A stretch of 64,000 bases of DNA from Thermodesulfovibrio sp. 3907-1M. Its GTDB lineage: Bacteria > Nitrospirota > Thermodesulfovibrionia > Thermodesulfovibrionales > Thermodesulfovibrionaceae. Shown here piece by piece: positions 33,868 to 36,828 of the stretch (positions are counted from its first letter, which is position 1; each line of letters starts with the position of its first letter). The notes beneath the pieces are model-generated. The model searched no databases, had not been told where the DNA came from, and was given only the letters and a program-made list of their open reading frames with translations. Location: assembly GCF_040450955.1 (NCBI RefSeq), contig NZ_CP144373.1:1530486-1594485 (forward strand), given 5' to 3'. The position numbers and the translations under genes were made by a program.

Positions 33868-34060
33868 GGCTTTCCTCCTTTTTCTATTATATGATTAAAC
33901 TTAATCAAAAACTTTTAGCCTCCCTAATTTTCAACTACCTATATCTCATTGCCACCCTGCGAAGCAGGCGAGGCATCTCCTCAGCTACCCATATCTGTCA
34001 TTGCGAAGGGCTCAATGCCATGAGGAATCTCTTACACTGTCCACATTCGGCAATTCAAAG
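33868..34060. repeat. dnaA-dnaN intergenic region with dispersed repeat
   Basis: About 33944-34038 holds GCCACCCTGCGAAGCAGGCGAGGCATCTCCTC-type sequence and GTCATTGCGAAGGGCTC ... GAGGAATCTC, related to the repeat at 3527-3725. It is more GC-rich than its surroundings and appears non-coding. Confidence 0.55.
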
Positions 34061-35380
34061 TTATTTATTTTCCTGTAATTTTCTTATAATGCTGTCTATC
34101 AATTTTGCAAGCGCTTCATCTTTTTCTTTATCCTTTTCTATCTGCTTACAGGCATATATAACAGTTGCATGATCCTTACCTCCAAAAGCATTACCTATTT
34201 CTGCTAACGAAAGATTTGTTAGTTTTTTTGTTATATACATAGCTATTTTTCTCGCATTTGCAATCTCTTTAGTTCTTTTTTTTGACTTTACATCATGAAC
34301 CCTGATTCCCAATGCTTCACATACAGCTTTTTGAATTAAATCTATTGTAATTGGCTTATTTTCATCGGGAAGTAAATCCTTTAGAACATGTTTTGCCAGA
34401 TCCATTGTTATTGGGGTCTTTGTAATAGAAATATATGCACATAGCTTGATTAAAGAGCCTTCAAGTTCTCTCACATTTGATTTAACTCTGGATGCTATAA
34501 AATATGCCACATCTTCGGGTAGTTGAACTCCTTCAAGCTCAGCTTTTTTATATAAAATGGCAAGCCTGGTCTCTATTTCTGGTGGTTGAATGTCTGCAAT
34601 AAGACCCATTCCAAATCTTGAACGAAGTCTGTCTGTAATATCAGAAATCTCCATCGGAGGTCTATCGCTTGAAATAACGATCTGCTTTTGTTTACTGTAG
34701 AGTTCATTAAAAGTATGAAAGAACTCTTCCTGGGTTGAGTCCTTCCCTGCAATAAACTGAATGTCATCTACAAGAAATACATCAAGGGTTCTGTACTTTT
34801 GTCTGAACTCAGGCATCTTTTCATGTCTTATTGCGGAAACAAACTCTCCTGTAAATTGTTCTGAGGACATGTAGCATACATTAAGTTCTGGCTTTTTATC
34901 CAGAATATAATTTCCAATAGCTGTTATTAAATGAGTTTTACCAAGCCCGACACCCCCATATATAAAAAGAGGATTATAGGCAAATCCTGGATTTTCAGCA
35001 ACTCTTAGTGCTGCTGCATGGGCAAACTGATTTGACGGACCCACAACAAAGGTATTAAAGGTATATTTAGGATTCAGATTACCTCTTTTTAATCCCTGCT
35101 TTTTTTCTCCAGTTGAAACTGTCTCATGCTCTTTACCTGTAATAATGTAACGAACCGAGATTTGATTTCCTGTAATTTGATAGAAAGTATCACTTATTAT
35201 TGAAGGAAAATTATCTTCTATCCAGTCCTTAAAAAATCTGTTTGGAACTTCAATAAAAGCCTCTGAATTCTTAATATCTAAAAGTTTTACAGGAGAAAAC
35301 CACAATTCAAAAGTTGATTCTCCCACTTTCTGAGCAACAATCTCTAAAATTTTTTGCCAGATTTTATTTATATCATTCAT
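34061..35380 (-). CDS. dnaA: Chromosomal replication initiator DnaA
   Basis: A 439-residue AAA+ initiator that opens oriC and loads the helicase. Domain I (about residues 1-80) is followed by a short linker, the AAA+ domain with Walker A GGVGLGKTH (about 142-150) and Walker B VFLVDDIQF, sensor 1 ISSDRPP, and the C-terminal DNA-binding domain with the signature GGKDHATVIYACKQIE (about 400-415). No Shine-Dalgarno sequence precedes the ATG at 35380. An AT-rich region with clustered TGTTAA motifs lies directly upstream. Confidence 0.98.
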   Translation of the reverse strand: MNDINKIWQKILEIVAQKVGESTFELWFSPVKLLDIKNSEAFIEVPNRFFKDWIEDNFPSIISDTFYQITGNQISVRYIITGKEHETVSTGEKKQGLKRGNLNPKYTFNTFVVGPSNQFAHAAALRVAENPGFAYNPLFIYGGVGLGKTHLITAIGNYILDKKPELNVCYMSSEQFTGEFVSAIRHEKMPEFRQKYRTLDVFLVDDIQFIAGKDSTQEEFFHTFNELYSKQKQIVISSDRPPMEISDITDRLRSRFGMGLIADIQPPEIETRLAILYKKAELEGVQLPEDVAYFIASRVKSNVRELEGSLIKLCAYISITKTPITMDLAKHVLKDLLPDENKPITIDLIQKAVCEALGIRVHDVKSKKRTKEIANARKIAMYITKKLTNLSLAEIGNAFGGKDHATVIYACKQIEKDKEKDEALAKLIDSIIRKLQENK

Positions 35381-35714
35381 TTTTCAACAACTTTTTAACA
35401 TTTGTTAAAAACTTTACTGTTAAAAGCCCGTTAAATTAAAAACTTTTTAAATTCAAAGAGTTTTATCCTTAGTACCAATTTTAAACCTTTTCATTATATC
35501 CTATAATTAACAAACTGAGCAATAAATTGTTAAAAACTCAAAAATTATTAACATAATCTTCATATTTAAAATCATTTTAATTACAAATTGTTAAATTTGT
35601 TAAAAAAACATCCTAAATTTTAAACAAGCAAACATCTTCAAAAAAAAAGCAAAAAATCAATTTTAAACATAAAAAGCGCCTCTATAGCTACTTCCAAAAA
35701 ATAAAAACAAAAAA
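35381..35714. other. Candidate replication origin upstream of dnaA
   Basis: A 334-base, very AT-rich gap between prfB and dnaA with no open frame worth calling. The hexamer TGTTAA or its complement TTAACA occurs eight times between 35395 and 35603 (TTAACA at 35395, 35507, 35548; TGTTAA at 35403, 35418, 35528, 35589, 35598). Classical TTATCCACA DnaA boxes are absent. The location and composition fit an origin or a dnaA autoregulatory region; no boundary can be set by eye. Confidence 0.5.
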
Positions 35715-36828
35715 TTAAGAAACTGAAGCAAACTTTTTAAGATATGCCTCTATAAAAATATCTATATCTCCATCCAAAACTTCTTCAACATTATAAACTT
35801 CAACATCAGTTCTGTGGTCCTTTATTAACCTGTAAGGATGAAGAATATAAGACCTTATCTGATTGCCCCATCCTATCTCTTTTTTATCACCTGCAATGGA
35901 TTTAATTTTATTTTCCTGTTCTTTCTGTAAAAGAACATAAAGCTTTGATTTTAAAATCTTCATTGCGATCTCTCTATTTCTATGTTGAGACCTTTCTGTC
36001 TGAGATGTAACAATAATACCAGTGGGAATATGAACAATTCTTACAGCAGAAGAAACTTTGTTTACATGTTGTCCACCTGCTCCTGAAGCTCTAAAAGTAT
36101 CAATTCTTAAATCCTCATCTCTTATTTCAACTTTAATATCATTCTCTATTTCTGGTAAAACAGAAACAGCTGCAAAGGAAGTATGCCTTCTTTTATTAGC
36201 ATCAAATGGTGAAATTCTTACAAGCCTGTGAACTCCTGACTCTGATTTTAAATATCCATAAGCATACTGTCCTTCAACAGTAAAAGTAACATCTTTAATT
36301 CCAGCTTCTTCACCTGCCTGTAAATCAATAATCTCAACTTTAAAACCCTTCTTTTCAGCCCATCTTAAATACATACGCAAAAGGATTTCAGCCCAATCCT
36401 GACTCTCTGTTCCACCAGCTCCAGGATGAATGGATACTATGGCATTATTTTTATCATGCTCTCCATTAAGTAAAAGCTGGATTTCAAGACTATCAATTTG
36501 GGATTTTATATTCTCTATCTCACTTTCTAAATCTTTTAAAAGAAGATATCCTTCTTCTTCAGATTCAGCAATACTAAAAGCTTCTTCAATATACAAAAAT
36601 CGGTCAGTAATATTTTCAATTGGTTCAATTACTTCTGAAAGTCTATTTTTTTCCTTCTGAATTTCTTTTATTTTTTCTATATTTTGCCAAGTTTCTTTTT
36701 TCTGAAGCTCTTTATCCAGATCCTCAAGTCTCTTTTTAAGCTTATCTATCTCAAAGACAGCCTCTTAATGAAAAAATTCTCTCTTTAGTCTCTTTTAAAA
36801 CAACTTTTAAATCTTCATATGTAACCAT
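35715..36828 (-). CDS. prfB: Peptide chain release factor 2, with programmed +1 frameshift
   Basis: RF2 ends translation at UGA and UAA. The gene starts at ATG 36828 with a GGAGG site at 36834-36838. Its first frame is 25 codons long and ends CTT TGA (36756-36751). Skipping the T at 36753 continues in the +1 frame (36752 to 35715) and gives a 370-residue protein with the tripeptide SPF and the catalytic GGQ (RASGAGGQHVNKV, about residue 251). The slippery CTT TGA G and an upstream AAGAGG (Shine-Dalgarno-like) match the autoregulatory prfB frameshift of other bacteria: low RF2 stalls at UGA and promotes shifting. The 5' end overlaps lnt by 22 bases. Confidence 0.95.

Follow-up and report, generated by a model that had tools for sequence, protein, structure and literature searches.

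Probable variant DnaA boxes upstream of dnaA in the order Thermodesulfovibrionales: a likely replication origin and dnaA control region

The genome of Thermodesulfovibrio sp. 3907-1M (G000, the source genome) consists of one contig of 1,935,540 bp, and the window, that is, the whole stretch of 64,000 nucleotides that was analysed, corresponds to its positions 1530486-1594485. The genes dnaA, dnaN, gyrB, prfB, and lnt were identified via family models. Between prfB and dnaA there is a gap of 334 bp (35381-35714) with a GC content of 0.20, whose features are collected in Table 1. Some observations concern the neighbouring sequence. The dnaA-dnaN gap (33868-34060) is 193 bp long here, against 11-53 bp in the other congeners read (the misread row L010 excluded), and it contains a dispersed repeat that is matched in part at 35 other places of the source genome. 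In the 5′ part of prfB, a CTTTGA (36751-36756) is located at the reading-frame shift and resembles the usual programmed frameshift site of release factor 2.

Table 1: Features of the prfB-dnaA region. Positions are those of the window; promoter elements and the unwinding element are predictions.
Feature	Position	Strand	Remark
dnaA (TIGR00362)	34061..35380	-	family-model match; followed by dnaN, then gyrB
DnaA-box-like TTTTCAACA	35381..35389	+	reverse box 2 of the triplet; abuts the dnaA start codon
DnaA-box-like TTTTTAACA	35392..35400	+	reverse box 1 of the triplet; contains the hexamer at 35395
DnaA-box-like TTTTTAACA	35403..35411	-	forward box of the triplet
Box CTTTTAACA	35418..35426	-	kept in most of 13 aligned congeners
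Degenerate box AATTTAACG	35429..35437	-	TTTAACA at this site in most congeners
Predicted dnaA promoter, -10 TATAAT	35493..35498	-	invariant in 13 aligned congeners
Box TAATTAACA	35504..35512	+	within the -35/-10 spacer of the predicted dnaA promoter
Possible weak -35 TTGCTC	35517..35522	-	18 bp from the -10; missed by the consensus scan
Box TTTTTAACA	35528..35536	-	adjoins the predicted promoter
Box TTATTAACA	35545..35553	+	
Box AATTTAACA	35589..35597	-	
Box TTTTTAACA	35598..35606	-	
Box TTTTAAACA	35618..35626	+	
Box TTTTAAACA	35661..35669	+	trio-like block 12 bp away
GC cluster AGGCGC	35676..35681	-	between box and trio-like block
Degenerate DnaA-trio block GAAGTAGCTATAG	35682..35694	-	aligns with clearer TAG/TAA repeats of relatives
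AT-rich stretch, candidate unwinding element	35695..35714	-	adjoins the prfB stop
prfB, C-terminal frame	35715..36596	-	far border of the prfB-dnaA gap

On the forward strand of the gap, TGTTAA was found at 35403, 35418, 35528, 35589, and 35598 and TTAACA at 35395, 35507, and 35548. These are exactly the eight hexamers, five and three, that an earlier reading made from the letters of the window alone (hereafter the sequence-only reading) had reported. Eight is the maximum of the window per 209 bp, the runner-up elsewhere having three, and the window-wide total is unremarkable (75 observed versus 59.7 expected). When the 334-bp gap was subjected to 2000 dinucleotide shuffles, the mean was 0.90 hexamers and the largest number 5, and none of the shuffles reached 8; thus AT richness by itself cannot account for the cluster. 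Each hexamer forms the 3′ end of a 9-mer of the type TTWTNAACA, which is the form of the DnaA box with A instead of C at position 6 (C6). There are eight of these 9-mers in the gap, while the 2000 shuffles gave a mean of 0.40 and a largest number of 3. At nine bases the sites are spelled TTTTTAACA, TTATTAACA, TTTTCAACA, and TTTTAAACA, together with near variants. None of them is a DnaA box in the strict sense (TTWTNCACA, with C6). TTWTNCACA itself is absent from the 334 bp, and so is TTATCCACA even with up to one mismatch allowed, which agrees with the statement of the sequence-only reading that the gap lacks classical DnaA boxes. In the alignment of 13 congeners, conservation was 0.890 in the box columns and 0.718 in the rest of the gap, and 1 of the 334 rotations of the box mask reached the box-column value, a total in which the unrotated mask is counted. 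The boxes at 35392-35400 and 35403-35411 together form a palindrome that occurs a single time in the source genome, at dnaA.

Just upstream of dnaA there is a conserved unit of 31 bp, in which spacers of 2 bp separate a forward box and two reverse boxes. The score for this triplet, drawn up after the sequences had been inspected, looked for a forward box and two reverse boxes whose starts are spaced by 11 bp, left positions 5 and 6 unscored, and had a threshold of at least 19 of 21. The threshold was reached by 44 of the 58 rows of the order, distributed over 12 of 13 families; the 14 rows below it include all 5 rows of family f4. At position 6 the boxes of the triplet carried A in 127 cases out of 132 and C in the other 5. 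The spacing is also present in L021, whose 600 upstream bases are 47% GC. These counts are to be read with the composition of the sample in mind: G006 is counted twice in the 58 rows, and likewise in the 59 rows used below for the dnaA-dnaN gap (L014 and L031 are the same contig), G003 and G011 were left out for having no dnaA match, G008 (L010), with 15 upstream bases only, is absent from all upstream counts, and the upstream piece of G029 (L219) is not included in the tables. The comparison of the same gap in relatives, which the sequence-only reading had proposed as a check, shows that the motif spacing is kept. It was also observed that dnaA has no visible Shine-Dalgarno sequence, the triplet occupying the 31 bases ahead of the start codon (35381-35411), unlike dnaN of the congeners, which has AGGAGG-type sites.

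The triplet was then searched in 61 whole genomes, allowing A or C at position 6 and using the reversed pattern as control. Matches were obtained in 36 of the 61 genomes, at 37 places, and the reversed pattern gave none in the 61. All places but one (36/37) are located at most about 150 bp upstream of dnaA. The 37th, in G020, precedes a truncated dnaA start beside a run of N. A second origin at this place was considered and discarded, as it corresponds to a truncated copy of prfB plus a dnaA start that ends in the N run; this copy (L217, G020:C1:250000-261000) lies about 154 kb from dnaA and is probably a scaffolding artefact.

The canonical box is quoted as TTWTNCACA, with variants in E. coli, H. 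pylori (TCATTCACA), and M. tuberculosis (YWRTCCACA). With these the boxes of the order share the 9-mer length, the T-rich 5′ half, the ACA end, and the clustering beside dnaA; all of them as quoted, that of H. pylori included, keep CACA (C6), whereas the boxes of the order have A6. A closer spelling is described in mycoplasmas, where TTATTAACA is a putative DnaA box of Mycoplasma hominis, M. mobile, and M. arthritidis (PMC2751442). The identical 9-mer is located there upstream of dnaA, and M. hominis has none between dnaA and dnaN (PMC2751442); the mycoplasmas differ in having one or two boxes only and in belonging to an unrelated lineage, and the passage in question describes no phased triplet (PMC2751442). 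AACA 9-mers are also common in AT-rich Firmicutes, the loci with Thr435 holding 75 AACA versus 147 CACA, so raw AACA counts are weak evidence. In the open-licence literature no match was found for TTTTTAACA paired with DnaA, nor, under Thermodesulfovibrio, Nitrospira, Nitrospirota, and Nitrospirae, a description of the boxes or origins of this order.

The strongest evidence comes from other Nitrospirota, of which 20 genomes outside the order were picked by hand across families. The triplet score was reached by 18 of the 20, with the same forward-reverse-reverse layout and steps of 11 or 12 bp, and C6 was present in 7 forward, 12 middle, and 6 last boxes, out of 18 each. In position and layout, the boxes of the gap are thus homologous to canonical boxes of related genomes. 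It is chiefly because the same layout appears there with a mostly canonical middle box that we take the sites of the order for DnaA sites, and the clustered motifs are very probably, as judged by these comparisons, unusually spelled DnaA binding sites common to the whole order. The proposal of the sequence-only reading that they could be variant DnaA boxes is supported by this conserved phased layout and by its canonical-type counterparts. Considering that AACA boxes also occur at the flanking positions in other Nitrospirota, the change is the loss of a canonical box and not the invention of a new one: at the flanks, boxes of the AACA type are old, and it is the middle box of canonical type that the order has lost, which sets a limit to any claim that the code is entirely new. 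The "divergent origin code in this lineage" suggested by the sequence-only reading holds for the order as a whole but not as a trait of the species.

The array overlaps a dnaA promoter which is itself a prediction. A sigma-70 consensus scan did not call this conserved promoter; in the 13 aligned congeners there is a TTGC-type -35, and most of them have a TGTTAA box in the spacer. With DnaA-box-like sites placed over the predicted promoter, the gap has what is expected of an autoregulatory operator, which favours the other suggestion of the sequence-only reading, a dnaA autoregulation array. The situation is comparable to that of E. coli and other bacteria, in which dnaA is autoregulated through DnaA boxes at its promoter (PMC8203912): in both cases the boxes overlap or adjoin the dnaA promoter, the differences being that here they are of the AACA type and that repression is what we infer from their position. 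Bound at the spacer box, DnaA would obstruct RNA polymerase, as happens in established cases of dnaA autoregulation (PMC8203912).

Where the gap adjoins prfB, runs such as TAGTAGTAGTAGTAATAG are present in many relatives, followed by a short spacer and then by reverse AACA-type boxes. Of 58 gaps, 13 carry a run of at least four TAG/TAA trios on the dnaA-sense strand, when 0.29 were expected and at most 3 appeared in 200 shuffles; on the antisense strand such runs were found in 0 of 58. Taking at least three trios beside a box as the definition of the element, the gap of the window, whose longest TAG/TAA run is 2, has a homologous degenerate block, GAAGTAGCTATAG, recognised by alignment. The block is degenerate in the genus as well, with a run of 3 in only 3 of 14 rows, two of which are copies of one contig. 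In the relatives with clear runs, the elements come in the order of the basal unwinding system of Bacillus subtilis (PMC8287927), with reverse boxes first, then a short spacer, TAG-type trios, and AT-rich DNA. The present case differs from that system by its location upstream of dnaA, after prfB, and by the degenerate trio block of the genus. It was also observed at the prfB end of L015, L017, L018, L022, and others that an inverted CTACTACTA stands ahead of the AT-rich stretch, mirroring the TAG trios beyond that stretch; it might form a hairpin or act as another arm of trios.

A cluster of boxes beside dnaA with adjacent AT-rich DNA, as expected of an oriC, is present in the gap. No DnaA boxes were found in the dnaA-dnaN gap in 59 rows, which include one misread (L010) and the second copy of the contig of L014 (L031). 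A bipartite origin, with boxes in the dnaA-dnaN gap, was ruled out on this basis, and dnaA-dnaN gaps without boxes make a monopartite origin upstream of dnaA most likely. The plain GC skew of the source genome, in 40 sampled stretches of 12 kb, showed no clear arms. We also calculated a strand-corrected skew, in which third-codon GC skew is compared between presumed leading and lagging genes, with a resolution of tens of kb. The origin placed at dnaA obtained the top score among 97, 91, and 101 candidate positions in the source genome and the two congeners G010 and G002, respectively, and out of 1000 permutations 15, 1, and 3 reached this score. When the origin was left free in the source genome, the best position found was non-significant (63 of 300 permutations reached it). 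A switch of strand composition at the site, as belongs to an oriC, is thus found in three genomes to within tens of kb, the plain skew of the source genome being uninformative. In answer to the GC-skew check that the sequence-only reading had proposed, the strand-corrected skew gives no better origin elsewhere in these three genomes.

The prfB-dnaA gap most likely contains the replication origin of the chromosome. We hold with good confidence that it is the chromosomal oriC together with the control region of dnaA, built on variant boxes TTWTNAACA, and its operation, as regards binding, repression, and unwinding, is inferred as follows. DnaA would bind cooperatively to the phased triplet at the dnaA start, whose forward box and two reverse boxes begin at steps of 11 bp, and would also occupy further boxes upstream, one of them in the promoter spacer, and in this way repress the transcription of its own gene. 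On the side of prfB, DnaA would load from the boxes, over the short spacer, onto the DnaA-trio block, and DnaA on this block would open the adjacent AT-rich DNA.

It is improbable, in our judgement, that the array serves DnaA solely as an autoregulatory operator and that the origin proper lies elsewhere. Such an operator would account for a triplet that hugs the start codon, for the box in the promoter spacer, and for the degenerate state of the trio block in the source genome, and boxes alone cannot separate the two possibilities, since origins and dnaA operators often overlap; what argues for an origin in the gap is the trio runs that relatives have there beside AACA boxes, the skew score, which in three genomes is highest for an origin at dnaA, and the dnaA-dnaN gaps without boxes. 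Less probable still is that another transcription factor binds TTTTTAACA and that the likeness to a DnaA box is accidental. The 9-mer does have two or three differences from TTATCCACA, and there are 283 TTWTNCACA sites elsewhere in the source genome, but the same layout occupies the same place in other Nitrospirota, with C6 in most middle boxes (12/18), the array flanks DnaA-trio runs, and the triplet is a marker of dnaA in 36 of the 61 genomes. Finally, the idea that the cluster is nothing else than the AT richness of an intergenic gap with 20% GC is refuted by the shuffles, 0 of 2000 reaching eight hexamers, and by the conserved spacing of the triplet, which recurs in 12 of 13 families, L021 and its 47% GC upstream sequence included.

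A further aspect is the sequence of the DnaA protein. In E. coli DnaA, the published positions that contact bases include 399, 423, 432-435, and 438-439 (PMC5043019). In the 56 proteins of the order that were read (L131 and L136, unreadable by the residue pattern, are outside the counts), residue 423 is never Pro (56/56), 51 have Ala and 5 have Ser at residue 435, and residue 439 is Tyr in all 56. Among the 20 Nitrospirota outside the order, Pro423 was found in 19, Ser/Thr435 in 20, and His439 in 18. Ala435 was found in none of the 51 readable DnaAs from 79 loci of other phyla (a first pattern read 44 of the 79). G081, the sole member of the same class outside the order that was examined, has Ala423, Ser435, and mixed boxes. 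A change of residue 435 specific to the genus was ruled out, the change being order-wide. As far as sequence comparison goes, the residue differences fit a joint change of box and protein, which would be a single event on the tree. We propose only tentatively that the ancestor of the order may have switched its DnaA code, with loss of Pro at 423, Ser/Thr to Ala at 435, and His to Tyr at 439 accompanying the change of C6 to A in the box, in such a way that AACA would now be preferred and CACA bound worse.

Origin finders that seek CACA boxes may miss or misplace the origins of this order, and the triplet offers a simple marker of dnaA and oriC for its metagenome bins. The order would also be a natural case in which the box and the residues that read it seem to have changed jointly, in a protein-DNA pair that is essential to nearly all bacteria.
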